Shown piece after piece: positions 8,528 through 49,965 of a stretch of 57,494 nt of DNA. The notes beneath the pieces are model-generated. The model saw only the letters and a program-made list of their open reading frames with translations, searched no databases and was not told where the DNA came from. Source of the stretch: Adlercreutzia sp. ZJ176 (GTDB lineage Bacteria; Actinomycetota; Coriobacteriia; Coriobacteriales; Eggerthellaceae); the NCBI RefSeq assembly GCF_011038975.1, contig NZ_JAAKEC010000018.1:1-57494 (forward strand). The letters run 5' to 3'. Position 1 is the first letter of the stretch. Each line of letters opens with the position of its first letter. A program made the translations under genes and the position numbers.

Positions 8528-9247
8528 GTGGCTTGCGAGGACGCGAAGAGCCGGCTGCGGCGGGTGATAGGGGACGCGGGCGTCGAGCGGCTCGACCGGG
8601 CGTGCGTGGCGGTGTTCGGCGTCGGCGGCGTGGGGTCGAGCTGCGCCGAGGCGCTTGCGCGCGGCGGCGTGGGCACGCTGGTGCTGGTGGACCGCGACGT
8701 GGTGTCGCCGAGCAACGTCAACCGGCAGGCCATCGCGTTCGCGAGCACGATGGGGCGCGCGAAGGTCGACGTGATGGCGGCCATGGCGCGCGAGATCAAC
8801 CCTGAGGTGCGCGTGGTGACGCGGGAGGCATTCGTGCTGGACAACGTGGACGAGGTGCTCGACGGCGCGCCGACCCCCGACTTCATCGTGGACGCGGTTG
8901 ACACGGTGACGGCCAAGATCGCGCTGGCTCGCTATGCGCAGGAGCGCGGCATCCCGCTCGTGGCCTCGATGGGCGGCGCGAACAAGCTCGACCCTACGCA
9001 GCTGCGCTTCGCCGACCTGTTCGCCACGCAGGGCTGCCCGCTGTGCCGCGCGGTGCGCAAGGCCGCGCGCACGGCGGGCGTCGAGGCGCTGCGCGTGCTG
9101 TACTCGCCCGAGCAGCCGGTGCGCGTGGAGGCGGCGGCGGGAGCGGCGCGCGCCGAGCGCACCGAGCTGGGCACGATGTCGTACATGCCGCCGATCATGG
9201 GGCAGATGCTGGCCGGGTACGTGATCCGCGAGCTGCTGGGCATCTAG
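8528..9247 (+). CDS. tcdA: tRNA threonylcarbamoyladenosine dehydratase (TcdA/CsdL, ThiF/MoeB fold)
   Basis: A 239-residue ATP-dependent E1-like enzyme that cyclises t6A37 of tRNAs to ct6A. The ATP-binding loop VFGVGGVGSSCAEALAR is at residues 29-45, followed by the SNVNRQ motif and DAVDTVTAK. The text CPLCRAVRKAAR near residue 165 is typical of the TcdA subgroup rather than ThiF or MoeB, and no rhodanese or MoaD partner is nearby. It starts at GTG with GGGAGGTG upstream. It lies alone between two terminators. Confidence 0.85.
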   Translation: MACEDAKSRLRRVIGDAGVERLDRACVAVFGVGGVGSSCAEALARGGVGTLVLVDRDVVSPSNVNRQAIAFASTMGRAKVDVMAAMAREINPEVRVVTREAFVLDNVDEVLDGAPTPDFIVDAVDTVTAKIALARYAQERGIPLVASMGGANKLDPTQLRFADLFATQGCPLCRAVRKAARTAGVEALRVLYSPEQPVRVEAAAGAARAERTELGTMSYMPPIMGQMLAGYVIRELLGI

Positions 9248-12617: not shown

Positions 12618-14255
12618 GTGAGCACTGTGCCAACTGATCAGAAAGTAATCGTCGTCGACTTCGGCGCCCAGTACGGACAGCTCATCGCGCGCCGCGTGCG
12701 CGACCTGAACGTATACTCGGAGATCGTGCCGTGTGACGTCTCCGCCGACGAGGTGCGCGCCATCGCTCCGGCGGCCATCATCTTCTCTGGCGGCCCGGCG
12801 AGCGTGTATGCCGAGGACGCGCCGTCCATCGATCCGGAGATCCTCGAGCTGGGCATCCCGGTGCTCGGCTTCTGCTACGGGCAGCAGATCATGGCCGTCA
12901 CGCTCGGCGGCAAGGTGGGGCACACCGAGAAGGGCGAGTACGGCCCGGCGCCGCTGACGCGCTGCGCGGACTCGGCGCTGTACGAGGGCACGCCCGAGGA
13001 GCAGACGGTGTGGATGAGCCATCGCGACGCCGTGACCGAGGTGCCCGAGGGCTTCGTCGTGACGGCGACCACCGATGTGTGCCCCGTGGCCTCCATGGAG
13101 TGCGCCGTGCGCAAGCTGTACGCCACGCAGTTCCACCCCGAGGTGCGCCACACCCCGCACGGCAACGAGCTGCTCGCGAACTTCCTGTTCGGCATCTGCG
13201 GGCTCGAGCGTAACTGGACCATGGACTCCATCATCGAGGACAGCGTGGCGGCCATCCGCGCGCAGGTGGGCGAGGACCGCGTGATTCTGGGCCTGTCGGG
13301 TGGCGTGGACTCCTCCGTGGTGGCCGCGCTGTGCGCACGCGCCATCGGCAAGCAGCTGACCTGCGTGTTCGTGAACCACGGGCTGCTGCGCAAGAACGAG
13401 CCCGAAGAGGTTGAGGAGGTGTTCTCGAAGCAGTTCGACGTCGACTTCGTGCACGTGCACGCCGAGGAGCGCTACGCTGGGCTGCTCGCGGGAGTCACCG
13501 AGCCCGAGCAGAAGCGCCGGATCATCGGCACGCAGTTCTGGAAGGAGTTCTTCGCCGTGGCGGAGGACCTCGCCGACGACGGCCGGCCGGTGAAGTTCCT
13601 GGCGCAGGGCACCATCTATCCCGACATCATCGAGAGCGGCGCACGCAAGACGGGCGGCAAGGCGTCCACCATCAAGAGCCACCACAACCTGATCCCGTTC
13701 CCCGAGGGCGTGCACTTCGACTTGATCGAGCCTTTGGACCACTTCTTCAAGGACGAGGTGCGCGCGCTCGGCACGGCGCTCGGGCTGCCGGACTACATCG
13801 TGCACCGCCAGCCGTTCCCCGGCCCGGGCCTGGCCATCCGCATCATCGGCGACGTGACGCCCGAGAAGCTCGAGATCCTCAAGGACGCCGACGCCATCGT
13901 GCGCGAGGAGCTCGACGCGTACAACGAGAGCCTGTTCGCGAAGACGGGCGAGCGCAACGGCGAGTGCGCGCGCGAGGCGGCGGGCGGCCCCGAGGTGGAG
14001 CGCGCCGTGTGGCAGTACTTCGCCGTGCTGCCCGACATCAAGAGCGTCGGCGTCATGGGCGATGAGCGCACCTACGCGCGTCCGGTCATCCTGCGCGCCG
14101 TGGAGAGCTCGGACGCCATGACCGCCGACTGGGCGAAGCTGCCCTACGAGGTGCTGGCCCGCGTGAGCGGCCGCATCGTGGCCGAGGTCCCCGGCGTGAA
14201 CCGCGTGGTCTACGACATCACGTCAAAGCCCCCCGCCACGATCGAGTGGGAATAA
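12618..14255 (+). CDS. guaA: GMP synthase (glutamine-hydrolysing)
   Basis: A 545-residue enzyme amidating XMP to GMP. The N-terminal class I amidotransferase domain has the nucleophile Cys86 in GFCYGQQ and TQFHPE for the His-Glu pair. The ATP-pyrophosphatase domain follows with LSGGVDSS, then the dimerisation domain ending IEWE. The GTG start has AAAGGAGC upstream. The 3' end is the prophage attachment site: the last codons ATC GAG TGG GAA plus TA form the att core, so integration restores the protein exactly and only changes the stop from TAG (still visible at 48,667) to TAA. Confidence 0.97.
   Translation: MSTVPTDQKVIVVDFGAQYGQLIARRVRDLNVYSEIVPCDVSADEVRAIAPAAIIFSGGPASVYAEDAPSIDPEILELGIPVLGFCYGQQIMAVTLGGKVGHTEKGEYGPAPLTRCADSALYEGTPEEQTVWMSHRDAVTEVPEGFVVTATTDVCPVASMECAVRKLYATQFHPEVRHTPHGNELLANFLFGICGLERNWTMDSIIEDSVAAIRAQVGEDRVILGLSGGVDSSVVAALCARAIGKQLTCVFVNHGLLRKNEPEEVEEVFSKQFDVDFVHVHAEERYAGLLAGVTEPEQKRRIIGTQFWKEFFAVAEDLADDGRPVKFLAQGTIYPDIIESGARKTGGKASTIKSHHNLIPFPEGVHFDLIEPLDHFFKDEVRALGTALGLPDYIVHRQPFPGPGLAIRIIGDVTPEKLEILKDADAIVREELDAYNESLFAKTGERNGECAREAAGGPEVERAVWQYFAVLPDIKSVGVMGDERTYARPVILRAVESSDAMTADWAKLPYEVLARVSGRIVAEVPGVNRVVYDITSKPPATIEWE
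14241..14254 (+). repeat. attL core (ATCGAGTGGGAATA)
   Basis: Identical to 48655-48668. It overlaps the final four codons of guaA and the first two bases of its stop codon. Flanking bases differ on both sides, so the identity is exactly 14 bp. Confidence 0.92.
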
Positions 14256-14525
14256 CCTGCTAGCAAAATGCACCCCGCCTGAACTGGCGTTTCCGCCCGC
14301 TGACCTGGGCAAACCTTACAATATATGATAGTCGCGCAGGTCAGGAGAGTGGTGTCATTGCCACCAGGTTGCCACCGCTTTTTGATAAAAATAATAATTT
14401 TGCACCGCGCAAGGCGGGCTGTATGTCAATAGGTTCTGCGCGCGGGTTTCGTGGAGAATGGGCTGATATAAAAAGAGCGCCGAAGGGGATTTCCTCCGGC
14501 GCTCTCGTGTGTTCTGTGGTTTTGT
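14256..14525. other. Left prophage end, non-coding
   Basis: Holds TGACCTGG at 14301-14308 and its inverse CAGGTCA at 14337-14343, a doubled TTGCCACC near 14376-14392, and an A/T-rich patch near 14395. These could be integrase or excisionase binding sites at attL. The end of the segment holds the terminator listed separately. No gene. Confidence 0.5.
14469..14505 (-). terminator. Terminator of the leftmost prophage gene
   Basis: AGAGCGCCG and CGGCGCTCT arms with a run of T on the minus strand (AAAA at 14471-14474). It directly follows the stop at 14526. Confidence 0.85.
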
Positions 14526-15326
14526 TTAGTAGCCGATGACTTCGCTTTCGACCTCTTGAATGACCTCCGCGGGAATCCTATCGACCGGGAGAGTATAGAC
14601 GGTGCCGAGCCGCGGGTTGAAGAAGCCGAGTTTTTTGACTTGCTGATACTCGGGATGGATGGAGTGGAGCCCCAGCCTCCAGTAAATCAGCAGCTGAAGC
14701 GTGTGCTTGTTGGTCGGCGGCTTGACCGACACCTTGAAGTCCCAGATGGTGTCGGCGGTCATGAAGTCTCCGTCGCCTGTCGCTATGGTCGGGGTGTATC
14801 CGCCTTCGAATGTTATGCCATCCATGATGACCGGTCCGTATTGCTGGAAGAACTTGCGGGAGCGGGAGACCATCTCTTGGATGTTGTATATGGTCGCTTT
14901 GTTGGGCAGTATGTCCTCGACGGGTTTGTACCCCATCGGACCCACGCGGAATAGGACGTCATAGCCAACCGCCTGGCAGGCAGCGGTGATAGACGCTTCA
15001 TCGTATCCGGTGATGTTTGCGAGTATGTTCTCGCATTTGTCGGTTTCGTCAATTTGCCCCGCGCCCGCATGGGATATTTTGAAGGCTTCTTTGACAGGCG
15101 AGCCCTCAAGGAATCGTGTCAGGTAGTCGACAGCCAGCCCGACGAGACCGGCATTGATGTTCTCTTCCGTGTGGTCGAGCAGCGGCTTCATATCGGGTAG
15201 CTCCACGCCGTCGAAGTCTTTGGGCTTGATATAGCCGCCTCGGGGCTGCTTGACTGCTGGGATTCCCATTCCCTTGATACCGTTGATTCTTTGAGTTACT
15301 GATACTCCATAAGCTGGTGCTGTCAT
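14526..15326 (-). CDS. Predicted PD-(D/E)XK-fold protein at the left prophage end
   Basis: A 266-residue soluble protein. The C-terminal half has the layout of a RecB/Cas4-like nuclease core: GDGDFM (Asp185/Asp187), then WDFKVS with Asp196-x-Lys198, then Gln211-x3-Tyr215 (LQLLIYW). The N-terminal half is helical and has no recognised domain. It stands with two hypothetical genes between the lysis region and attL, on the minus strand with its own terminator, a usual place for lysogenic-conversion cargo. It could be a phage exonuclease or a defence or counter-defence factor. Nuclease activity is inferred from motifs only. Confidence 0.6.
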   Translation of the reverse strand: MTAPAYGVSVTQRINGIKGMGIPAVKQPRGGYIKPKDFDGVELPDMKPLLDHTEENINAGLVGLAVDYLTRFLEGSPVKEAFKISHAGAGQIDETDKCENILANITGYDEASITAACQAVGYDVLFRVGPMGYKPVEDILPNKATIYNIQEMVSRSRKFFQQYGPVIMDGITFEGGYTPTIATGDGDFMTADTIWDFKVSVKPPTNKHTLQLLIYWRLGLHSIHPEYQQVKKLGFFNPRLGTVYTLPVDRIPAEVIQEVESEVIGY

Positions 15327-16297: not shown

Positions 16298-16328
16298 CCG
16301 GGCGGCTACCTCCTCTCGTGCCGCCCGG
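16298..16328 (-). terminator. Stem-loop between the XRE gene and the downstream hypothetical gene
   Basis: CCGGGCGGC (16298-16306) and GCCGCCCGG (16320-16328) are a perfect 9-bp inverted repeat. There is no clear T-run, so read-through into the next genes is possible. Confidence 0.5.
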
Positions 16329-16354
16329 TTGGTGATGTTGTTGTCGTCGTAGTA

Positions 16355-16594
16355 TTAGAGAGAGACGGTGCCAAGCACCATTTCGTTGAGATTGATGTTG
16401 ATGCCGTATGCGGCATGGAACGCATTGACGAGGTGGAATAGCGTCTCCGCGCTCGGCGAGCACTTGCCGCTCTCCCAGATGCCGACCATCTGCTTGGTGC
16501 GTCCGGTCATCTTTGCGAACTCGTCGCGGCTGAGGTTGTAGTGCTTGCGAAGGATTGCGATGTTGGTCGCGGTATTGTCGAGGCTCTTGCACAT
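16355..16594 (-). CDS. XRE-type helix-turn-helix regulator, candidate lysogeny repressor
   Basis: A 79-residue protein that is essentially one helix-turn-helix domain (LSRDEFAKMTGRTKQMVGIWESG), with a short C-terminal extension. I chose the ATG at 16594, which has AGGAG 8 bp upstream; two earlier starts would lie before or inside that site. Its promoter carries a 13-bp palindrome exactly between -35 and -10, and the same palindrome occurs in the integrase promoter and, with changes, in the divergent RHH promoter. It is a good candidate for the factor binding those sites, but the RHH protein is equally possible. Confidence 0.82.
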   Translation of the reverse strand: MCKSLDNTATNIAILRKHYNLSRDEFAKMTGRTKQMVGIWESGKCSPSAETLFHLVNAFHAAYGININLNEMVLGTVSL

Positions 16595-16631
16595 TGTCAT
16601 CACTCCTGTTCCTTGCTTACCTTGTGATTGT

Positions 16632-16660
16632 ATTATATACGAATGTATTACATTAGGCAA
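16632..16660 (-). promoter_or_regulatory. XRE-gene promoter with operator palindrome in the spacer
   Basis: Reading the minus strand: TTGCCT, 17-bp spacer, TATAAT. The spacer starts with AATGTAATACATT (16642-16654), the reverse complement of the integrase operator. A repressor here would block polymerase directly. Confidence 0.85.
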
Positions 16661-16689
16661 TAGGGAACGGGAATATATTTTGGAAATTC

Positions 16690-16717
16690 TTGCCGAATGT
16701 ATTACTTCCGGTAGAAT
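16690..16717 (+). promoter_or_regulatory. RHH-gene promoter with near-copy of the same operator
   Basis: TTGCCG (16690-16695), 16-bp spacer, TAGAAT (16712-16717). The spacer begins with AATGTATTACTTC, which matches the operator over 10 bases and then departs in the last half-site. A weaker site would give a graded response. Confidence 0.75.
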
Positions 16718-16737
16718 GGACTATGGAAGGAGGCGAT

Positions 16738-17178
16738 ATGACGAATAGCAGAGAAGAGAAGGTTCTCGACGCAGGCTCGGCGGAGCTGGTCAGCGTCGAG
16801 GAGAACAGACGGCACGGTCCTGCCGACGCCCGGGCGCGCGTTATGAATGACGCTAAACGGGGATACAGGAAGCGGGCTTCCACAGACGATAGCGTGATGG
16901 TGTCGTTTAGGATACCGCGGGAGCTGAAGGCTCGAGTGAAGGAGGAGGCGGACGCTAACGGACGTAGCCAGAGCGAGCAGATGATAAACAGCATTGAGGA
17001 CGGACTGTCGCTTGGTAATGCTGTCGAGGCTGTGCGTGGGTGTTTGAGTAAGTTCCCGCCGCCGTTCGCCGCCGGGGGCTGGGAGCCGTCATCGAATGAG
17101 TGTATGTCCTTTATCTTGGAGGCGGTTGATAATGCTATCCGCCGCAGGGAGAGTCAGCTCGGGGAGGAGCGGGCATGA
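16738..17178 (+). CDS. Ribbon-helix-helix DNA-binding protein
   Basis: A 146-residue protein with a basic, disordered first 50 residues, then a MetJ/Arc-like ribbon-helix-helix core (VMVSFRIPRELKARVKEEAD, then GRSQSEQMINSIEDGL) at residues 53-90 and a C-terminal helical region. GGAGGCGAT precedes the ATG at 16738; a longer reading would start upstream of its own promoter. It is divergent from the XRE gene and its stop overlaps the next start (ATGA). Probably a second regulator of the lysogeny switch or an autorepressor of this two-gene operon. Confidence 0.8.
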   Translation: MTNSREEKVLDAGSAELVSVEENRRHGPADARARVMNDAKRGYRKRASTDDSVMVSFRIPRELKARVKEEADANGRSQSEQMINSIEDGLSLGNAVEAVRGCLSKFPPPFAAGGWEPSSNECMSFILEAVDNAIRRRESQLGEERA

Positions 17179-38277: not shown

Positions 38278-39597
38278 CTACTCCTCTATGACCTCCGCCG
38301 TGTCGCCCGTCAGCTCCTCCCAACGCTTGATGATGACATCGCAGTAGTGGGGGTCGAGCTCCATCAGGTATGCCGTCCGCCCCATCTGCTCGGCGGCGAT
38401 GAGTGTCGTGCCGCTGCCACCAAACGCGTCATAGATGACCTCGCCGGGTTTGCTGCTATTGCGTATCAGGTGCGCGAACAGCTTGACTGGTTTCATTGTC
38501 GGGTGGAGGTCATTGACCAGCGGCTTGTTGTATCGCAGGACGTCCGTCTGTATGCCGGCTTCGAGCAGGCGGTGAATCTCGGCGATGAGCTCGCCGCGGG
38601 ACATCTTGTTGAGGTCTGTGTCCTCGATGATGTTAGTCTCTTTGCGCGTCGGGGCGAAGTAATGTGCCTCGCCGAGCTTCCAGCCATACACGCACGGCTC
38701 GCTCTTTGCTTGGTAATCGCACCTGCCGATGACGATGTTATTCTTTATCCAGGTTATTTCCTGTGCTCGATATAAAGATGGTATGCCGTCTATCACGCTT
38801 GCGGTGGTGATATCGCCGCCGCCATACCAAGCATAGAGCGCACCGCCCGGTTTCAAATGCGCGTCAATTTGTATAAAAACCGAGGAGAGGAACTTGTGGA
38901 ATGCCTCGTCGGTCATCAGGTCGTTCTCGATATCAACCTCAATGCGATTGCCACCGTATGCCTTGTTTAGATGTTCGTTCTTACTTGCGTAGTCGCAATT
39001 GTACGGCGGGTCGGTGAGAACCATGTCGGCGAGTCGTCCGGCGAAGAGCTTGTCCACGTCGTCTTGCCTTGTGCTGTCGCCGCACATCAAGCGATGCTCG
39101 CCGAGTCGCCAGACCTGCCCGGGCTGTGCCGTCGTCGGTTCGTCATAGTCAGGCTCGGGAGGCGTGTCCTCGTCAACCGCTTCATAGTCCTCGAGCGTCT
39201 CGCCAGCGCCGAAGCCGAACTGCTCCATATCGAAGTCACCGAGAGCCTCGAGCTCGGCGGCGAGAATATCCTCGTCGTATCCCGTGTTGGTCGTCAGCTT
39301 GTTATGAACCAGCGTGTATGCCCGCCGAGCCTCGTCATCAAGGTGGTCGAGACGGATGCAGGGAACGGTGTCAATACCAAGTTGCCGGGCGGCGAGCAGT
39401 CGTCCGTGTCCTTCGACGATGACCGTCTCTCCGTCCTCGTTAGTCCAGACGGCGATGGGGTCGTCGAAGCCGAACTCCTCGATGGAGTTGCATATCTGGT
39501 CGACCTGCCATTCCGGGTGCTCCTTCGCGTTACCTGCGTAAGGGACGAGAGCGTCTGTTGGAATGCTCTCAACTTTGAGCCTCGGCGTCATTGTCAT
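38278..39597 (-). CDS. ParB-domain / DNA adenine methyltransferase fusion
   Basis: A 439-residue protein. Residues 5-120 form a ParB/Srx-like domain with VEGHGRLLAARQLG. Residues 165-430 are a class beta N6-adenine or N4-cytosine methyltransferase: DPPY at 196-199 and, near the C-terminus, YDAFGGSGTTLIAAEQ for S-adenosylmethionine. Such fusions are frequent in phages and protect DNA from host restriction. No cognate nuclease is near, so it is an orphan methylase. Confidence 0.9.
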   Translation of the reverse strand: MTMTPRLKVESIPTDALVPYAGNAKEHPEWQVDQICNSIEEFGFDDPIAVWTNEDGETVIVEGHGRLLAARQLGIDTVPCIRLDHLDDEARRAYTLVHNKLTTNTGYDEDILAAELEALGDFDMEQFGFGAGETLEDYEAVDEDTPPEPDYDEPTTAQPGQVWRLGEHRLMCGDSTRQDDVDKLFAGRLADMVLTDPPYNCDYASKNEHLNKAYGGNRIEVDIENDLMTDEAFHKFLSSVFIQIDAHLKPGGALYAWYGGGDITTASVIDGIPSLYRAQEITWIKNNIVIGRCDYQAKSEPCVYGWKLGEAHYFAPTRKETNIIEDTDLNKMSRGELIAEIHRLLEAGIQTDVLRYNKPLVNDLHPTMKPVKLFAHLIRNSSKPGEVIYDAFGGSGTTLIAAEQMGRTAYLMELDPHYCDVIIKRWEELTGDTAEVIEE

Positions 39598-39670: not shown

Positions 39671-39991
39671 CTATACGAGCCAGCTCGGGAAGCCGTTTGC
39701 CTGCCGCTCGGGCTCGCGCATAGCGTCTAACCGCTCCTGTGTTGCGAGGTATGTCTTCCAGAGCTTCTGGTATGCGACGAGCGCCGGGTTCTCGCGGATG
39801 CCCGCCTGCCCGCCGCCATTGTTATAGGAGATGGCGACTCCGGTCGACCCGATGAGCTGCTTCGCGTTGCTTATCTTGTCCTCCATGTAGATAAGCTCCT
39901 CAGCGAGGCGTGTCGCCTCCTCCTTGCGTTCTGCCGGTATGCGATACAGCAGGCGCTTGACGCGCGTGCTCTGCGTAATCTTCCGCGCCAT
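39671..39991 (-). CDS. Phage protein resembling P27-type terminase small subunits
   Basis: A 106-residue basic protein (MARKITQSTRVKRLLYRIPAE at the start, listed to 20: MARKITQSTRVKRLLYRIPA). It contains NNGGGQAGIRENPALVAYQK, a text typical of small terminase-like P27 proteins. Another small subunit lies beside the large terminase, so this copy may instead act in transcription or be a relic. CAGGAGGCACC precedes the ATG. Confidence 0.6.
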   Translation of the reverse strand: MARKITQSTRVKRLLYRIPAERKEEATRLAEELIYMEDKISNAKQLIGSTGVAISYNNGGGQAGIRENPALVAYQKLWKTYLATQERLDAMREPERQANGFPSWLV

Positions 39992-41138: not shown

Positions 41139-41279
41139 GTGTATCACCCCGGAGAAGAAAGAGAAGCGGCGGAGATACGAAAGGAAAGAAGAAACTCCGC
41201 CGCCTGTCATAAAGTTTCAGCGAATTGAGGGCATAAAATGGAAATATATAAAATTATTTGGAAATATTTTTGCAAAGAG

Positions 41280-41303
41280 AAGAGCCCCCTCACGGGGGCT
41301 CTT
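41280..41303 (-). terminator. Terminator separating early genes from the late activator
   Basis: AAGAGCCCCC (41280-41289) and GGGGGCTCTT (41294-41303), loop TCAC, then CTCTTT on the minus strand. Just downstream lies an A/T-rich stretch with TTGCAA and TATATA, a possible promoter for the activator. Confidence 0.85.
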
Positions 41304-41985: not shown

Positions 41986-42504
41986 TTACAGCGCGCCGAG
42001 GTCGCGGCTGATATCTACGTCGAGGTCGCAGAATGAGAATGCTGGTGGAGTATCACGCGGTTCGGACGAATAATCGTATCCATCATCAGGGACTTGTGCT
42101 TGCTCGTAGTCCTCGGGGGATACTCCATGCTCGAGCGCCTTCTCGTATGCTGTCCGCGCGTTCTTCTCGTCGCCAGCGTCGTGGAATTGGTGGAACTTGC
42201 GCGCGTAGTAGTCGCCCTTCGGCTCGCCCTCTGGGCGGCGCCCCCACCCGCTGCCGGACTTGCCTTTGAGATAGCGCCCGCGTCCTTCGTCGATGTTCCA
42301 GCGGCAAGCCTCGAATATCGCCTTGAATGCGATGGCAGGGAAGGTCTTGGTGTCGACGAACTTCGGCTCCTTCCCGAGCGCGCCATACTCGACGATGGCG
42401 AGGGCGAGCATTGCTTTATCTGTCGTCGACGGCAGGCTCTCGAGAGCGTTGGTGTAGGTCTCCAGCCATGTAAATTGCGCCAGCTCTTCGTTCTTCTTCG
42501 TCAT
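41986..42504 (-). CDS. Early phage protein, DUF6291-like
   Basis: A 172-residue protein with the text FTWLETYTNALESLPSTTDK and FPAIAFKAIFEACRWNID, reminiscent of the DUF6291 family that replaces classical replication genes in some phages. A Gly/Arg-rich linker follows (KGKSGSGWGRRPEG), then an acidic tail. GAAGGGAATG lies before the ATG at 42504. A link to replication is not shown. Confidence 0.55.
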   Translation of the reverse strand: MTKKNEELAQFTWLETYTNALESLPSTTDKAMLALAIVEYGALGKEPKFVDTKTFPAIAFKAIFEACRWNIDEGRGRYLKGKSGSGWGRRPEGEPKGDYYARKFHQFHDAGDEKNARTAYEKALEHGVSPEDYEQAQVPDDGYDYSSEPRDTPPAFSFCDLDVDISRDLGAL

Positions 42505-42538
42505 TTTTATCATTCCCTTCGTTTTTTTTGTCGGCAAG

Positions 42539-43627
42539 TTAGTGACAGTGAGGGCAGTCAGGGTGCTCGTCGCTTGCGATGAATCCCTTCTTGCATTTCT
42601 TACAGGTGTGGAAATGCGCCGGGCGCATAGTCGCTCCGTGAAGGCGCTCCGTGATGAACATCCCTTTTGGTGTCAAAAAGACGAACGCGTCGATGGGTGT
42701 CTCTTTGTCCGCCGCGTGCCGGACGAGCGCCTGGATGAGCTCCTCGTCGCGCTCGGGGTCGGTAAAGATACCGATGTGGGTTTGGAGCTGCGGGGTGTTG
42801 TTGTAGCTCCGGCAGGACCTGTCCTGCGAGATGTAAGCAAAATCTGATTCGTAGTATTGCGACGGGAATTCAGGGAGCTCGATGCGGAGCAGTTTCTGCT
42901 CGACGGCGAGCTTGCGGTTAGACAGGTCATATGCGTCGATGTTGTACTCCCTGCAGCGCTGGACGAAGCGGGCGCGATACTTGTCGGTCAGTTCTGTTCG
43001 CGTAGCGTCGCGCCGGGCATACTGGACCATCGCCTCTGCTGGCGAGCAGAACTGGTCGTCGATGTCATATGCATGCCCGCATTTCGTACAGACGAGACGG
43101 TGTGCTGGTAGTATTTCCACTTTGCCGCATGAGGGGCACTTGTATATGCGCGCGGGAACGCCGTCCGGGTCGTCGGTGGTGGTGTCGTAGTAATACAGAC
43201 GGGACGCTGTTGCGATGATAAATGCGCGCGGGTAGATGGACTTGTTCGCGCGCTTGTAGTCGTGGATATTGCCGAGGATTCCCGCCTGGACGTCGACGGC
43301 AAGCTGCTGAACTTTGTGGTCAGCGTCAGGTCCCTTTGCTTTGATGTCGACGAGGTCGGCGATGATGTTGCCGCTCGCGTCCTTACCGTAATACATATTA
43401 AAGTCCGGCGTATACCGCGGAGAGGATACGGGAATGGAAGGGTCGTAGGCATACTCTACGGTGTCCGTGTCGTAATCGAGATGGAGTCTGCCGTGGTCGC
43501 CGAGAAACTTTCCGAAGGGAGCCTCCGACATCGAGTGGTAGTAGCCGCCGGTATGACGGGAGAGAATGCGCGCGGGCTTAATGCGCGGATAGAAGCAGGG
43601 GTTAAAGAGGTCGTGAGTGTTAGCCAT
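42539..43627 (-). CDS. Nuclease-like early protein with PD-(D/E)XK core and two zinc ribbons
   Basis: A 362-residue protein. Residues 70-95 have the layout of a TnsA-like or Holliday-resolvase-like core: YTPDFNMYY, then ADLVDIKAKG (PD followed by D-x-K). A zinc ribbon with CPSCGK and CTKCGH lies near residues 165-190, and a second with CKKCKK and CPHCH at the very end. This suggests a DNA- or RNA-cutting enzyme of the early programme, perhaps replication or host takeover. ATG at 43627 has AAGGAGTG 8 bp upstream. Confidence 0.65.
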   Translation of the reverse strand: MANTHDLFNPCFYPRIKPARILSRHTGGYYHSMSEAPFGKFLGDHGRLHLDYDTDTVEYAYDPSIPVSSPRYTPDFNMYYGKDASGNIIADLVDIKAKGPDADHKVQQLAVDVQAGILGNIHDYKRANKSIYPRAFIIATASRLYYYDTTTDDPDGVPARIYKCPSCGKVEILPAHRLVCTKCGHAYDIDDQFCSPAEAMVQYARRDATRTELTDKYRARFVQRCREYNIDAYDLSNRKLAVEQKLLRIELPEFPSQYYESDFAYISQDRSCRSYNNTPQLQTHIGIFTDPERDEELIQALVRHAADKETPIDAFVFLTPKGMFITERLHGATMRPAHFHTCKKCKKGFIASDEHPDCPHCH

Positions 43628-43784: not shown

Positions 43785-44033
43785 TTATGCTGTGATGACG
43801 CTCCTTTCCTTGCGCCCGCTCGGGGCGAAGATGAACTTGGTGTAGTAGCTGTTATAGAGACGGAAGAGCTTGTTGAACGCTTCGACGCTCGGCGGCGTGA
43901 TACCGTTTTCATAGCGGTAGATGTCATCAGGTGTCAGTCCAGTCTTGTATGCTGCCGAGGGGATTGATAGACCGACTGTCTTGCGTGCCGAGCGGAGGTT
44001 GCTGGCGATGGTTGCGTAGTCATTGCTGTTCAT
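43785..44033 (-). CDS. Second small XRE-type regulator
   Basis: An 82-residue helix-turn-helix protein (LRSARKTVGLSIPSAAYKTG, then LTPDDIYRYENGITPPS). It lies in the early operon between the acidic duplicated protein and the nuclease-like gene. It may act as a Cro-like early repressor in balance with the XRE/RHH pair at the left end. Confidence 0.78.
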   Translation of the reverse strand: MNSNDYATIASNLRSARKTVGLSIPSAAYKTGLTPDDIYRYENGITPPSVEAFNKLFRLYNSYYTKFIFAPSGRKERSVITA

Positions 44034-44062: not shown

Positions 44063-44815
44063 TTACAGGCGCTCGAGCTCGCGGCGGATGGCGTGTGCGA
44101 GAGCCTGCTCGAAGTCCTCGCGGTCGCAGGCACCGTCGGTTGCCGTGCTGATAGCCTCGGAGAGGTCGATGTCTGTGTCGGTCTCGTTGCGATATAGGTC
44201 ATTGTCGCCGGCAAGCTGCCACTCTCCGGTCTCCGTGTCGATGACGAGCGTCTGGTTGTTGGTGCTATCAAATCCCCAGACGCATTCGCCGAGCTCCTCG
44301 ATGTCGTACATGATGTTGCGGACGATATCGTTGATATACTCGTCGGTGATGTTGATTCCGCTCTCCGCGGTTTCTGTCTCCTCGTCGTCCTCTGCGTAGT
44401 CGAGCTCGCGGCGGATAGCCCCGGCGAGGTCGCTGTCATCGTATGCGACTTCCTCGTCCTGCTCGCGGGCGATGAAGTCATAAATGTCTTCCCTCCAGTC
44501 CGGGAGGTCCATATCATAGACGGCGCGGCAGATGTAGTTCGCGAGCTCGCGCTCGAGGTCTTCTGGGTCCCAGTGCTCCTCGTTCGCCGTCCGGATGGCT
44601 TCGTCGATGTTGAAATACCCTTCCGTGTCGAAGCAGTAGTCGTCTTGTTCCTCTGCGGTCCTCCACTCGCCCGAGCGCCGGTTGAGGACGACGGTCATCG
44701 GTGCGTCGGTCCAAGCGTAGTCGTAGACGCCGGCGCTGTGGTAGATGTCAGGCACGATGTTGCGGACGATGTCCTTGATGTATGTGCTGATGTAGATGGT
44801 GTCGTAGTTCTTCAT
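44063..44815 (-). CDS. Acidic protein made of two tandem copies of one domain
   Basis: A 250-residue, strongly acidic protein without membrane segments. Two halves are alike: STYIKDIVRNIVPDIY with VVLNRRSGEWRTAEEQDD and NIDEAIRTANEEHWDPEDLE in the first, TDEYINDIVRNIMYDI with LVIDTETGEWQLAGDNDL and DLSEAISTATDGACDREDFE in the second. No known domain recognised. High acidity and an early position would suit a DNA-mimic or host-takeover protein, but this is inference. Its upstream leader is a near copy of the leader of the next gene upstream. Confidence 0.72.
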   Translation of the reverse strand: MKNYDTIYISTYIKDIVRNIVPDIYHSAGVYDYAWTDAPMTVVLNRRSGEWRTAEEQDDYCFDTEGYFNIDEAIRTANEEHWDPEDLERELANYICRAVYDMDLPDWREDIYDFIAREQDEEVAYDDSDLAGAIRRELDYAEDDEETETAESGINITDEYINDIVRNIMYDIEELGECVWGFDSTNNQTLVIDTETGEWQLAGDNDLYRNETDTDIDLSEAISTATDGACDREDFEQALAHAIRRELERL

Positions 44816-44821
44816 TTTTTA

Positions 44822-44987
44822 TTTCCTTTCGTGTTTGCGAGGTTCCTTCTCTCTCGCGCTTACATTTTTAAGTTTAGGTGGATTTCGCTTGATATTTACT
44901 TGCTTGCGATTTCCCCGACAGTTTTATTAAATATTGCTCTTGACCTGGTCTTTCTTGCCTTTGATTGCTTTCAGGTTTCTTTCAGGT
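44822..44987 (-). repeat. Duplicated promoter-leader unit, copy 1 (copy 2 at 45378-45541)
   Basis: Both copies, read on the plus strand, share in order CCTTTCGTGTTTGCGAGGTT, the CTCGCGCTTACAT motif, an A/T-rich middle, TTGACCTGG plus CTTTCTTG, and CTTTCAGGTTTCTTTC. In the RNA sense the GCGAGG...CCTCGC bases can form a short hairpin just before the ribosome-binding site ACGAAAGGAA. Each copy drives one early gene. Confidence 0.75.
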
Positions 44988-45371
44988 TTAGCACCCGAGC
45001 AGTAAGGCACAGGCGCGGGCGGCGGCTTCTTCTTTTTTCCTGGCGACTGCCGCGCGCTCGTCGTCCGTCATCGTCGCCTGCTTGTAGATGCTGTCAAAAC
45101 CACGGTCGCGTCCATCAATCCACGCCTTGGCGCTGGTGATGGCGATGGCTTTGTCAGCGTTGCTGTCGCTTACCATTCCGCGGCGGATGTCGCGTGCCCA
45201 GGCGATTTGCTTCTCGCTGCCCTCGAGCTCCGGCAGGTGATGACGAGCCTCGAAGCAGTCCAGGCACTCGCAGGACTCCTCCTGCTTGATGATGTACTCG
45301 CGCTTGCTGCCAGGTCCGTAGAGCTCGATGGTCTCCGTGCATCCGCAGGTGTGTGTGATTTCGTACTTCAT
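44988..45371 (-). CDS. Small Cys-rich early protein of accessory-element type
   Basis: A 127-residue protein. The start MKYEITHTCGCTETIELYG and the pairs Cys9/Cys11 and ESCECLDCFEA make a small zinc-binding head. The later text LEGSEKQIAWARDIR is a motif I recall from many phage and plasmid hypotheticals. The end is an Ala-rich helix. Start ATG at 45371 has CGAAAGGAAC upstream, in the duplicated leader. Function unknown. Confidence 0.7.
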   Translation of the reverse strand: MKYEITHTCGCTETIELYGPGSKREYIIKQEESCECLDCFEARHHLPELEGSEKQIAWARDIRRGMVSDSNADKAIAITSAKAWIDGRDRGFDSIYKQATMTDDERAAVARKKEEAAARACALLLGC

Positions 45372-45541
45372 GGTTCCGTTCCTTTCGTGTTTGCGAGGTT
45401 CCTCTTCCTCGCGCTTACATATACAAGTTTCGGCGAATTTTGGTAATAACCGGCATACCTGAAAAATCCCCGACAAAAATAATTTTTATAGGGTTTGACC
45501 TGGGCTTTCTTGTTTAAGGTTTCTTTCAGGTTTCTTTCGGG

Positions 45542-46059
45542 GTAGTGTTTGGACGCTGTTTATCACCGGCACCTCCTCGACCGTCGGAGGCTGTGATGTG
45601 TTTGACTACGAGATGACGAGACTGATGTATATGTCCCGCCCGCGCCTGGTGCTCGCGGACTGGTGGAGCGCCGGCAGCGGAGAGGGCGAGCACGAGCATA
45701 TATTGTGTTATCTATGATGGAAATAATTCCATCGGCTCGGGGCTCTCGTCAGTATGTTGCCGGATATGGAGAGTATCGACGGCTGTGTGCTTGCTAATAC
45801 ATCTACTTCTTCCTCTCGCCAGCCCTAAAAATCGAGCTACATATACGCGCGGGCAGGATACAGAGAGTCGGGTGTGATGTTGTTTCTGGTTTCGGTTTCT
45901 TTTCTTTTCTTTTCGGATAATCCGTCCTTTGAAACGGGGATAAAGGGGGTTTATAAAGGGGTTTAAAGGGGTTTATTAAAGGGGTTTACCTTGTAGGTTA
46001 ATTAAAGGTATTTATGCCCGCGCGGTATCGCCGCCGGCGAGTTTATTGTCATCGAATGC
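45542..46059. other. Non-coding region between early genes and integrase, possible origin region
   Basis: About 520 bp without a firm gene. A 39-codon reading at 45598-45717 (plus, GTG start, GGAGG upstream, text DYEMTRLMYMSRPRLVLADW) is open but weak. A polypyrimidine run (TTTCTTTTCTTTTCTTTTC) at 45896-45914 precedes the AAAGGGGTTTA repeats, then an A/T-rich patch. The combination of repeats, A/T-rich DNA and divergence of early genes from integrase is typical for an origin. Confidence 0.5.
45942..45988 (+). repeat. Iteron-like tandem array of AAAGGGGTTTA
   Basis: Four copies at 45942-45953 (with one extra G), 45955-45965, 45965-45975 and 45978-45988, and a damaged fifth (AAAGGTATTTA) at 46004. 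Starts are spaced 10-13 bp. No spacers of CRISPR type. Confidence 0.85.
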
Positions 46060-46088
46060 TTGCTTAATGTATTACATTGGTATATAAT
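46060..46088 (+). promoter_or_regulatory. Integrase promoter with operator palindrome in the spacer
   Basis: TTGCTT (46060-46065), 17-bp spacer, TATAAT (46083-46088). The spacer starts with AATGTATTACATT (46066-46078), a perfect 13-bp palindrome, followed by GGTA. The same arrangement occurs in the XRE promoter 29 kb away. Confidence 0.9.
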
Positions 46089-46105
46089 ACAGGAGGACGA
46101 AGGCA

Positions 46106-46234
46106 ATGTCAAAGAGGAGTGAGCATGGCGACGATATCACCTACCGAAAAAGGCAAGTCCCGGAGCAAATGCCGGAAATGGCGCATTTTTGTGTCCTGCG
46201 GGACCGACGAGTATGGTCGGCGCATACAGCGTAG
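46106..46234 (+). CDS. Possible 42-residue leader peptide overlapping the integrase start
   Basis: ATG at 46106 has the best ribosome-binding site of the region (AGGAGGACGAAGGC). It reads MSKRSEHGDDITYRKRQVPE and stops at 46234, in the +1 frame relative to integrase. It could regulate integrase translation or be chance. The downstream integrase ATG has its own site inside this frame. Confidence 0.35.
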   Translation: MSKRSEHGDDITYRKRQVPEQMPEMAHFCVLRDRRVWSAHTA

Positions 46235-47312
46235 CAAGCGGGTTAGGGATATGACCTACTCGGAGGCGAAGGAGGAGGCAGTCCGCTTCGAATGCGAATG
46301 TCTTGGTATCAGCAAAAGGGACACGACTTTCGCTGACTACGCCCGGAATTACCTCGAGCGCCGGCGCCCGTTGCTGAAGGAGAGCACCTACAATAACCGC
46401 CGGAGCGTGGTGGCGACCCTCGTCAAAATCTTCGGCGAGTCTGTCAAAATGAGCGGCATGACGAGCGAGCTCGTCGAATCAAAGATGAACGAGTTGCTGG
46501 TGAGAGGAGTCAGGTCGAATACCAAACCTAAACCATGTAAAGCGTCCTATGTATCGTCGCTATACACCTACCTGTCCTCCATTATGATGGACGCTGTGCG
46601 CGCTGGTATTATCACCCGCTCGCCGCTGGACGGTATCAAGCGCCCCAGCGGTAAAATCGAGAAGCGGGAAGCGCCGACGATGAAGCAGCTCGCGGACCTG
46701 GTCGATGAGATGGATGTCTCTAACGCGCACGAGATGGCCATCATCTTGCAGTGCTTGCTGGGCGTCCGTCGCGGGGAGGCGTTGGCACTCCGCTGGCAGG
46801 ATATTGACTTCGACGAGAGTATTGTCCATATCCGTCATAACCTGGCGCCGAATTGCGTGCTAACATCGACGAAGACGGAGAGCAGCCGCCGGGACCTGCC
46901 GATGCCGGCGACCTTGGCGGAGAAGCTGCGGGAGAGACAAAAGGTTGTCAAAAAGGGGCTTCGCCGCGCCGTCCGGGGCGGAATGCTGGACGAGATGCCG
47001 GAGCTGGGCGATGTGTTTGTATGCTGTGACGAGATGGGACGCCCCGTCGGTCCGGGGAGTCAGACCTGCTGGTGGGCTAACCATCGTGATAGGTTTGGGA
47101 TGGAAGGCTATACGGAGCACGACTTGCGGCACGGGTATTTGACGGCGCTCGCCCGCTCGGGCGTTCACCCGTCTGTTGCCCAGGCGCTCGCCGGGCACCA
47201 GACGAGCGCCATAACGATGGAGATATACACAAGTGTTGATATGTCGGCGAAGGCAAGCGGCGCGGAGGTCTTTGACGGCGCGCTGGGCGAGTTGATGGAC
47301 GGAGAGGAGTAA
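46125..47312 (+). CDS. int: Tyrosine-family site-specific integrase
   Basis: A 395-residue recombinase. The first 60 residues form an arm-binding domain (WRIFVSCGTDEYGRRIQRSK), then a SAM-like core-binding domain. Catalytic residues in the C-terminal domain are Arg215 (GVRRGEAL), Lys250 (TKTESSRRD), His332 and Arg335 (EHDLRHGY), His358 (AGHQTS) and Tyr368 (EIYTSVD). It joins attP to the 3' end of guaA. The start ATG at 46125 follows GAGGAG by 5 bp. Transcription probably is held down by the palindrome in its promoter. Confidence 0.95.
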   Translation: MATISPTEKGKSRSKCRKWRIFVSCGTDEYGRRIQRSKRVRDMTYSEAKEEAVRFECECLGISKRDTTFADYARNYLERRRPLLKESTYNNRRSVVATLVKIFGESVKMSGMTSELVESKMNELLVRGVRSNTKPKPCKASYVSSLYTYLSSIMMDAVRAGIITRSPLDGIKRPSGKIEKREAPTMKQLADLVDEMDVSNAHEMAIILQCLLGVRRGEALALRWQDIDFDESIVHIRHNLAPNCVLTSTKTESSRRDLPMPATLAEKLRERQKVVKKGLRRAVRGGMLDEMPELGDVFVCCDEMGRPVGPGSQTCWWANHRDRFGMEGYTEHDLRHGYLTALARSGVHPSVAQALAGHQTSAITMEIYTSVDMSAKASGAEVFDGALGELMDGEE

Positions 47313-48088: not shown

Positions 48089-48463
48089 TTATGCGTTCTG
48101 CTCGCAGGCACTGATGATGTCCTCGAGCTCGTCCGTCAAGATGTTCTCGTCCTCGGTGACCTCGCGGAGATAGTCCGGGTCCCAGGTGTCCTCGTCCTGG
48201 ACCGCGGAGAATTGCTCGTCGTATGCTTCGAGCCAGCGGCAGAAGTCCCAGCCGTCGGCTCCCGTGGCTTCGAGAGCGGCGGCGACGCTCGTCCCGCTGC
48301 CAACTTCTTCGCCATCGAAGGAGAGGACGGTGTAGGTGTCGCCGTCGTTGGTGATGTATACCTCGCGCTCGCCGGTGCTCGTGAAGAGCTGCCCGTCGGC
48401 GATTCCTTGCTCGGGCTCGCCGAAGACGGCATGCATTGCTTCGTATGGCTTGTAGTCTGTCAT
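48089..48463 (-). CDS. Acidic hypothetical protein near attR
   Basis: A 124-residue acidic protein (starts MTDYKPYEAMHAVFGEPEQG), with text ALEATGADGWDFCRWLEAYD, ending in an acidic helix. GAGAGCAGG is the likely ribosome-binding site. A TATAAT at about 48506-48511 on the minus strand is a plausible -10 box. It is transcribed alone, away from attR, and could be expressed in the lysogen. Confidence 0.65.
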   Translation of the reverse strand: MTDYKPYEAMHAVFGEPEQGIADGQLFTSTGEREVYITNDGDTYTVLSFDGEEVGSGTSVAAALEATGADGWDFCRWLEAYDEQFSAVQDEDTWDPDYLREVTEDENILTDELEDIISACEQNA

Positions 48464-48654
48464 TTTGGGACCTGCTCTCGTTCGACTTTGATGGTATTAT
48501 ATTAGTACCTGTGCTTACTGGTTGAGTATGTCATCAGGTTTCTTTGATAGTGTCAAACGAGGGATGGAGCGAGCAGTGTCTTTCTGCAACCGACTTGCAT
48601 CCTCCTCGGGCATTTATTCCCGTTTTGACCTGGGGTTATATCCCGTCTATGTTA
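48464..48654. other. Right prophage arm, non-coding
   Basis: Holds TTTTGACCTGGGG at 48624-48636, the same TGACCTGG word seen next to attL and in the duplicated leaders, 20 bp before the core. It is a good candidate for an arm-type integrase site. No gene. Confidence 0.5.
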
Positions 48655-48668
48655 TCGAGTGGGAATAG
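48655..48668 (+). repeat. attR core (ATCGAGTGGGAATA)
   Basis: Exact copy of 14241-14254. Continuing with G gives the original guaA ending ATC GAG TGG GAA TAG, so the uninterrupted host gene used a TAG stop. Confidence 0.92.
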
Positions 48669-48681
48669 AACATTTGTTCTA
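48668..48681. promoter_or_regulatory. SOS-box-like palindrome beside attR
   Basis: AGAACATTTGTTCT fits the GAAC-N4-GTTC pattern of Gram-positive LexA sites. It starts on the last base of the att core and lies in host DNA, originally just behind guaA. A LexA role is inferred from pattern only. Confidence 0.4.
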
Positions 48682-48722
48682 AAACTGCTGTTTAAATTAG
48701 TAGAAAGATGGTGACAATAGGG

Positions 48723-49058
48723 TCAGGTCATTTTGTCGCACACACATTTCGCCCGACTGGTGATGTCTCTGCCAATATCTGCGATTCGCTCGATCTGACG
48801 AACTGGCATACCGAATGCACGAAGGGTTGCAAGAGCGTGATTCCTTGCTTCTTTGGGTCGTTCCTTTAGATGGCAGAAGGCTTCCTTTCCGAGAAGGGTA
48901 ATGGCGTGTTCTATCAGCTCATTGTTTCCGAGTTCTCGGTGACTCTGTGGCAAAATACCCCCATTGTCACCGCTAAGGGCGGCGCAACTTCGAAGATGTT
49001 CACAGCAACGATAACAACGGGCTTCAAGTGCAAGGCACCACCATCGTGCTGCTATCAT
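48723..49058 (-). pseudogene. C-terminal remnant of an IS200/REP-type transposase
   Basis: An open stretch of 111 codons whose end reads LKERPKEARNHALATLRAFG and MPVRQIERIADIGRDI, matching in style the C-terminal helix-turn-helix of REP-associated tyrosine transposases. The catalytic HUH and Tyr part is absent, because the upstream DNA now encodes the divergent SRAP gene. The first codons have no ribosome-binding site. I read it as a decayed fragment; a small intact DNA-binding protein is the alternative. Confidence 0.45.
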
Positions 49059-49065
49059 GTGCGCT

Positions 49066-49689
49066 ATGTGCGGAAGATGCGTCATACTCACCTTCGACGA
49101 GGTGCTCGAAGTCATCCGGGAGATCGAGGTCAACTCGCCCGTGAACATCGAGCCGGATTGGCCTGCCCGAAGGCCTCTTGCATACCCGAAGGCATCTGCC
49201 CCGCTCATCGTTCCTAAGTTCGACACTGCCCTTGCGTCGCCCGCCCTCGCTTCCGAAGCGCTTTCCGCCCGTGAGCTCTCGTGGGGGTTTGAGGAGTCGT
49301 GGAAGCCCGGCGTCGTGTTCAACACGCGCATCGAGAGCACGGAAAAGCCCACGTGGCGCGACTCCATGGAACATCGCCGCTGCGTCATCCCGGTGCGCGC
49401 GTTCTTCGAAACGCACCGCGAGGAGACCTATCCTTCGCCGAAGACTGGCAGGCCCGTCAAGCGCCAGTACGAGTTTTGTGTTCCTGGTCAAAACGTCGTC
49501 CTCATCGGCTGCATCTGGAGGAGCAGCACGTTTTCCATGGTGACCACCGAGGCGAACGCCGACATGGCGCCAATCCACCACCGCATGCCGCTCATCGTGC
49601 GTCAAGAGGAGCTTCCGCTGTGGTTTGGCCCCGGCTATCGCAAGCTCGCCGACCGCTCTTCCATCAGGCTCGAAGCCAAGCGCGCCTAG
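49066..49689 (+). CDS. SRAP (HMCES/YedK-like) abasic-site DNA-protein crosslinking protein
   Basis: A 207-residue protein starting MCGRCVILT: Cys2 becomes the N-terminal nucleophile that links to abasic sites. Further family marks are WPARRPLAYP, VVFNTRIES (the conserved Asn), FFETHRE (the acidic residue, normally YEW), and PIHHRMPLIV with the catalytic His. I started at 49066, not the in-frame ATG at 49057, so that Cys is residue 2. The promoter is unclear and the 5' flank is a transposase fragment. An SOS-box-like site lies 390 bp upstream. Confidence 0.85.
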   Translation: MCGRCVILTFDEVLEVIREIEVNSPVNIEPDWPARRPLAYPKASAPLIVPKFDTALASPALASEALSARELSWGFEESWKPGVVFNTRIESTEKPTWRDSMEHRRCVIPVRAFFETHREETYPSPKTGRPVKRQYEFCVPGQNVVLIGCIWRSSTFSMVTTEANADMAPIHHRMPLIVRQEELPLWFGPGYRKLADRSSIRLEAKRA

Positions 49690-49965
49690 ATCGCAACTGA
49701 CGACTGCGCTCTACGCCCACCTCTTCTGATCACCATTCCCTTCACCCGCCCCCACGCAGAGCACTCTCGCATGGAGTCGGCTCGCCGCAAGGCGCGGCTT
49801 CCTGCGCAAAACCCGCACAAGCACGGTTGGCATTGTGCAGGTTGCGGGCGAGGCCGCCCTTTGCGAAGAAGGCGCTTTGGCCCTTGCGGCTTGCGCCAGC
49901 TCCATGCCGTGTCTGCCATGGGGCGGAAGCGAAGGGCATGCCGCCAGGAAGAAGGAGGTACTTCC

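Follow-up and report, generated by a model that had tools for sequence, protein, structure and literature searches.

A tandem repeat array downstream of a predicted early promoter in an Adlercreutzia prophage, a possible operator

The window analysed here is a stretch of 57,494 nucleotides from Adlercreutzia sp. ZJ176, holding a prophage that occupies 14241-48667, is inserted at guaA and continues beyond its own integrase gene. The attL core ATCGAGTGGGAATA lies at the 3′ end of guaA (14241-14254, + strand), with the left boundary of the prophage based on where the match to guaA of a sister genome ends (at 14255), and the attR core, again ATCGAGTGGGAATA, lies at 48654-48667 (+ strand), similarity to the relative L008 stopping at 48668 in a query that ran to 48700. 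By our estimate a 14-bp att repeat is expected about 0.1 times by chance alone in the searched ranges; what gives it weight is that it coincides with the end of guaA and agrees with the boundaries seen in the L008 and sister-genome matches. The tyrosine integrase (46125-47309, + strand) was assigned from matches to phrog_1 (7.6e-55) and Pfam Phage_integrase (1.7e-16); elsewhere in the bacterial family an integrase 55% identical to it adjoins a similar guaA-like end sequence (judged by eye), four remote integrase relatives were found among the genome contigs and a further match is L023. Copies of the TGACCTGG type occur around both att ends (14301, 14335, 48626) and in early leaders (44941, 45496). 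To the right of the prophage, parts of 48640-49700 recur at three main places on host contig C49 (96, 87 and 76% identical). A different integrated element on host contig G000:C45 carries TTCGCCCC triples adjoining its integrase (L053 12252-12292) and TCGCCCCA triples near its other end (L054 2903-2951), which look like integrase arm sites. Within the prophage, 38281-39597 encodes a ParB-type N-terminal domain fused to a DNA methyltransferase.

Between the early genes and the integrase gene, where the sequence-only reading had placed it, lies a repeat array whose unit is the 12-bp quasi-palindrome TAAAGGGGTTTA, present in three exact copies within 45954-45988 (+ strand): unit 2 at 45954-45965, unit 3 at 45964-45975, which alignment shows to be TAAAAGGGTTTA in L008, and unit 4 at 45977-45988. 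These are preceded by unit 1 (TAAAGGGGGTTTA, 45941-45953, + strand), which has one extra G, such that the four tandem copies reported earlier are three exact copies and one near copy, and a further, degenerate unit 5 (TAAAGGTATTTA, 46003-46014, + strand) follows 26 bp from unit 4 with its outer arms intact and its centre altered. A poor match with four mismatches at 45931-45942 (GAAACGGGGATA) does not keep the TAAA/TTTA arms. The units are dyad-like, of the form TAAA-N4/5-TTTA, and the start-to-start distances of units 1-5 are 13, 10, 13 and 26 bp, about one or two helical turns. Both flanking features of the earlier description were found again, namely a polypyrimidine run at approximately 45888-45915 (+ strand), which is purine-rich on the leftward transcript and resembles elements upstream of two early genes, and A/T-rich DNA, only one 100-bp stretch of the prophage being less stable than 45916-46015.

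The exact core AAAGGGGTTTA occurs three times in the window and three times in the 2,723,730-base host assembly, in each case within the array (exact matches only), with the reversed sequence, taken as a control, giving 0 occurrences in the genome count. The array is the sole exact 11-mer triple within 40 bp anywhere in the prophage, and dinucleotide shuffles produced such a triple in 0/60 cases at k = 8, 9 or 11 and in 3/60 at k = 7. When clustering was not demanded and up to two mismatches were allowed, nine unit matches were found in the window against 4.2 expected, with 4 of 100 shuffles reaching nine; it is the clustering of the units, not their number, that is improbable. An origin of the array in chance or low complexity was ruled out by the shuffles together with conservation in L008, and the array is real and phage-specific. 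Sites for a host regulator were considered unlikely, the exact 11-mer being confined to the array within the host assembly and a host regulon thus being improbable.

Among 138 genomes of the bacterial family the tandem pattern was found in one, the window's own. Seven loci with the pattern were found in IMG/VR, including a contig (L027) identical to this phage over the compared stretch; none of the other six (L024, L025, L026 and L028-L030) appears related by eye, as judged from the surroundings and reading frames of L024, L026 and L028-L030 and from the match surroundings of L025. L008 is missed by a search for the exact pattern because its third unit is changed. In L024, an unrelated phage contig, two abutting TAAAGGGGTTTA units at 2643-2664 lie in a gap between open reading frames with promoter-like sequence adjoining (by eye), a pair that chance could have produced, given the 2.9 million contigs searched. 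In the unrelated viral contig L026, four or five tandem units of the AAGGGGTTT type stand in a noncoding gap around 8634-8653.

Just upstream of the array is a strong predicted leftward early promoter, which had no place in the earlier account. This promoter, P_L (46084-46112, - strand), has the form TTGACA-17-TATTAT with 11 of 12 consensus positions and an inferred start at about 46077. A consensus scan of 44700-46200 returned it as the one promoter-like site where shuffles average 1.4, and the scan alone therefore cannot tell P_L from chance. Its support comes from the comparison of 46057-46112 with L008 (placed by eye in the alignment, with the count computed), in which all eight differences fall within the 17-bp spacer, such that the hexamers and the distance between them are unchanged although 8/17 spacer bases differ. 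Overlapping P_L is a possible weak rightward promoter for the integrase (TTGCTT-17-TATAAT, 46060-46088, + strand), noted by eye and not picked up by the consensus scan of 44700-46200. The inferred start of P_L falls on a palindrome, AATGTATTACATT (46066-46078), which also lies within the weak rightward promoter and recurs at 16642-16654, with a variant at 16696-16708, in the divergent region of the repressor and Arc-like genes; matches at up to three mismatches number 13 against 2.8 expected (0/100 shuffles). The palindrome is a likely operator. That the array is the same operator as that of the repressor region was rejected, the palindrome there differing in sequence.

The array lies some 60-137 bp downstream of P_L, corresponding to about +63 to +137 of the leftward early transcript, and is included in a leader of about 700 nt (45372-46076, - strand) that holds no convincing gene, the reading frames wholly inside it being at most 57 aa, with the first gene of the transcript beginning near 45371. 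The leader also contains an inverted repeat, GATGGAA-ATAA-TTCCATC (45716-45733), which by eye is the same in L008. Upstream of two early genes, 44823-44986 and 45379-45541 form a duplicated pair, piecewise about 73-86% alike, which carry GAAAGAAACC elements on the transcript strand. The L008 matches to the leader fall in three places, one of just 47 bp.

Conservation was assessed against one relative, L008, which is 90-92% identical; searches found only two close relatives of the prophage, a near-identity phage search gave no match, all terminase relatives (1380 records) were below 60% identity and the protein of 44991-45413 had eight weak matches. At fourfold-degenerate sites of nine genes, the window and L008 differ in 146/703 cases; because the region is rearranged in L008, two early genes close to the leader were not counted. 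By comparison, 43 of 752 aligned sites differ across 45372-46124, 1/63 in the array segment (45928-45990) and 1/40 in the polypyrimidine stretch (45888-45927). Against the fourfold sites these give p = 5e-18 for the leader, 2e-5 for the array alone and 1e-7 for the array with the polypyrimidine stretch (Fisher). Set against the remaining leader (41/649), the array and polypyrimidine run together (2/103) give p = 0.11 (Fisher), such that constraint appears to extend over the entire leader, within which the array is not shown to stand out. The fourfold differences are unevenly spread between genes, from 0/30 (47732) and 9/85 (the sigma-like gene) to 25/81 (the DUF6291-like gene), with 48/180 in the neighbouring integrase gene, and for this reason local recombination could mimic constraint. 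Conservation in this one relative suggests that the array is functional DNA, and it may be one part of a larger constrained element.

Two phage proteins are candidates for binding the array. The leading one is an Arc/Mnt-like ribbon-helix-helix protein (16690-17175, + strand), encoded divergently from the repressor gene (16358-16600), with a Pfam Arc match of 3.8e-05 that lies above the cut-off, a match to the Mnt repressor (1mnt, 1.1e-4) and, as its top PHROG, phrog_795 ('partition protein ATPase', 1.5e-10). The second is a helix-turn-helix protein of the early operon (43788-44033, - strand), with matches to HTH_31 of Pfam (2.6e-08) and to PezA (2p5t, 0.0098). No copy of the unit at up to two mismatches was found in the Arc-like gene's own region (16300-16900), and one copy with three mismatches lies inside the gene.

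The reading we favour, at a probability of roughly 0.43, is that the array is a cooperative operator for a phage-encoded dimeric DNA-binding protein, perhaps of the Arc/Mnt type. Several dimers of such a protein would align side by side a short way downstream of P_L, on DNA that also precedes the integrase gene, and accumulation of the protein would lower early transcription, integrase expression or both; the binder would be the Arc/Mnt-like protein in the first place and the early-operon helix-turn-helix protein in the second. The array, its uniqueness, its conservation in one relative, the sequences of promoter and palindrome and the candidate genes are observed, and from them we infer binding, the identity of the binder, its dimer symmetry and the effect on transcription. 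The array stands within the first transcribed stretch of P_L, a promoter predicted from its sequence and its conservation in L008. In the only two base-changed units, unit 5 and unit 3 of L008, the TAAA/TTTA arms are intact and the centre is altered, but the poor match at 45931-45942, if taken as a unit, does not keep them. The abutting TAAAGGGGTTTA pair of L024 was also counted for an operator. With a strong predicted early promoter immediately upstream, an operator is no less likely a role than an origin, and the operator reading is favoured over a replication origin, with which it is compatible, the two not being exclusive. The helical spacing of the units is counted for an operator because cooperative arrays with such spacing are known between phage promoters: for Apl of phage 186, the direct repeats stand 10-11 bp apart in the interval from pR to pL, and binding was seen only where at least three operators were present (PMC7498355).

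Among known systems, the Apl, Cox and Xis regulators of 186, P2 and lambda have short tandem direct repeats near one turn apart that adjoin early promoters (for Apl, PMC7498355), an arrangement that the array roughly resembles, but here there are no copies at att and the spacings are 13/10/13 rather than 10-11. No excisionase-like gene was recognised in the Pfam and PHROGs scans of the prophage proteins. The array may resemble P2 Cox boxes and the Arc operator. For the Arc and Mnt repressors of P22, and the ParR/omega-type proteins that bind tandem sites, the likeness lies in the phage encoding an Arc/Mnt-like protein and in units that are quasi-dyads with A/T arms, whereas the sites are not found at the Arc-like gene's own promoter region and binding here is predicted. 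The iteron origins of lambda O, P1 RepA and the V. cholerae RctB 12-mers likewise have tandem repeats with an A/T-rich flank in noncoding DNA, an arrangement found here in the early region, but for the present array, a putative member, no linked full-length initiator, loader or nearby DnaA box was found. Operator and iteron arrays are thus already known; for this array, no described relative was found among the searches named here. RdfS is treated in PMC11963761.

Evidence on replication comes chiefly from a DUF6291-like early protein (41989-42510, - strand), which is akin to replication-linked proteins over their N-terminal part and lacks their C-terminal part. Its DUF6291 match (0.009, 16.6 bits against a cut-off of 27.2) falls under the Pfam cut-off, as does every DUF6291 match of its relatives, and it also matches phrog_15768 (function unknown) at 2.5e-4. 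A literature search for DUF6291 found no paper. Relatives were found in six of 138 family genomes, including the window's own and G078, and those of the same family are 31-38% identical over the matched N-terminal part; the G078 match was dropped as a phage relative, being located in a cellular gene region (L048). In L043 and L045 the relative is flanked on one side by an SSB gene, assigned by a Pfam scan in the former and by similarity in the latter, and on the other by a DnaC/IstB-like ATPase, while in L044, and judging from the sequence also in its near copy L047, the relative comes after RecT. A Phg_2220_C domain is present in the L044 relative, the C-terminal part of which matches phrog_428 ('replication initiation protein', 2.4e-6), and two Porphyromonas phage records contain proteins, annotated as 'replication initiation protein', that match the L043 relative in its C-terminal part. 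A tblastn search of phages with the DUF6291-like protein and that of 42542-43627 gave no match. The structure prediction that had been proposed for the early proteins was carried out, and the AlphaFold models were too poor for use (mean pLDDT 40 for the 42542-43627 protein and 52.5 for the DUF6291-like one), a Foldseek search of the PDB returning nothing at E ≤0.001. A second A/T-rich gap, at 41172-41282, adjoins the sigma-like gene and contains, at 41233, the 50 bp of lowest stability in the prophage; it is a possible further origin or control site.

That the array is a phage replication origin, its units being iterons bound by the DUF6291-like protein or by the product of 42542-43627, which has nuclease-like and zinc-ribbon features, is the nearest rival, a serious alternative held somewhat less likely than the operator. 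The A/T-rich flank would melt and host helicase and polymerase would be recruited, with transcription from P_L running through the site and perhaps activating it. Such a role would suit some 750 bp of conserved DNA without a convincing gene, the low stability of the flank, and an array of at least three tandem repeats that is the only exact short-repeat triple in the prophage, but the stretches at 16617 and 41172 melt as easily. The term iteron-like, used in the sequence-only reading, is a fair description that does not by itself make an origin: there is no initiator gene alongside, and no DnaA box TTATCCACA within one mismatch was found near 45.9 kb, the nearest being at 39886 and 29709. Such a box is common at iteron origins, not universal. 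The claim that the prophage has no recognisable replication genes held for the 38 proteins in the PHROGs scan (E limits 1 to 0.001), which did not include the tape measure or some of the small proteins and showed no helicase, primase, polymerase or loader; it is qualified by the relatives of the DUF6291-like protein, whose neighbours and initiator-type C-terminal parts give the suggested link of that protein to replication some substance, though the C-terminal part is absent here and 3.4 kb separate the gene from the array. Nor was an array like this one found near the genes of the relatives, where the tandem-like repeats are short and coding, two lying inside the relatives' own gene (L043 9788-9842, L045 9276-9325), a place where phage origins may also sit. 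A bolder version, in which the P_L leader and the array form a new, loader-free origin where the single-domain DUF6291-like protein, perhaps its nuclease-like/zinc-ribbon operon neighbour, and the leader transcript would start replication with host helicase and polymerase only, is improbable.

The leader may alternatively act as RNA, the transcript of about 700 nt being regulatory or a replication primer and the C-rich copies functioning at the RNA level, which we hold to be unlikely. The whole leader is conserved, and two of 12 folding windows of 130 nt on the transcript strand beat shuffles (45611-45740, z -2.5; 45671-45800, z -2.2), but the windows with the array are not more stable than shuffled sequence (z +0.5 and -0.7), the opposite strand of the same leader stretch is comparable (z -2.3 and -1.7, other windows up to +2) and an Rfam search of 44700-46200 gave no match up to E = 1. 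RNA-primed origins have been described for some mycobacteriophage prophages (PMC7157519), which provides a precedent. A G-quadruplex switch formed by five G tracts of the + strand, blocking transcription or replication, is very improbable even with the G4Hunter maximum of the prophage at the array (1.7 over 40 nt, one of two regions at 1.2 or above), given that the four main tracts are separated by loops of 8, 6 and 9 nt, that one GGGG tract is GGG in L008 and that unit 5 lacks the tract (GGTA) where the TAAA/TTTA arms persist. Least probable of all are arm-type sites of the integrase or excisionase sites, for which speak the short direct repeats about one turn apart beside the integrase gene and the precedent of the other element in the same host, where a TTCGCCCC triple stands between the integrase and a tRNA-like sequence (by eye). 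The position of att largely refutes them: att at 48654 is 2.7 kb from the array, which is therefore not taken as an integrase arm site, no unit at up to three mismatches was found near either att (14100-14700 and 48300-48900), and it is TGACCTGGG copies, not array units, that flank att (14301, 48626).

With the operator reading still preferred, what had been a vague repeat becomes a delimited and conserved cis element, together with a predicted promoter, a likely operator and a few candidate binders. If the array were an origin, replication of this phage would begin without any recognised loader; if it is an operator, control of the early genes would have a second level.
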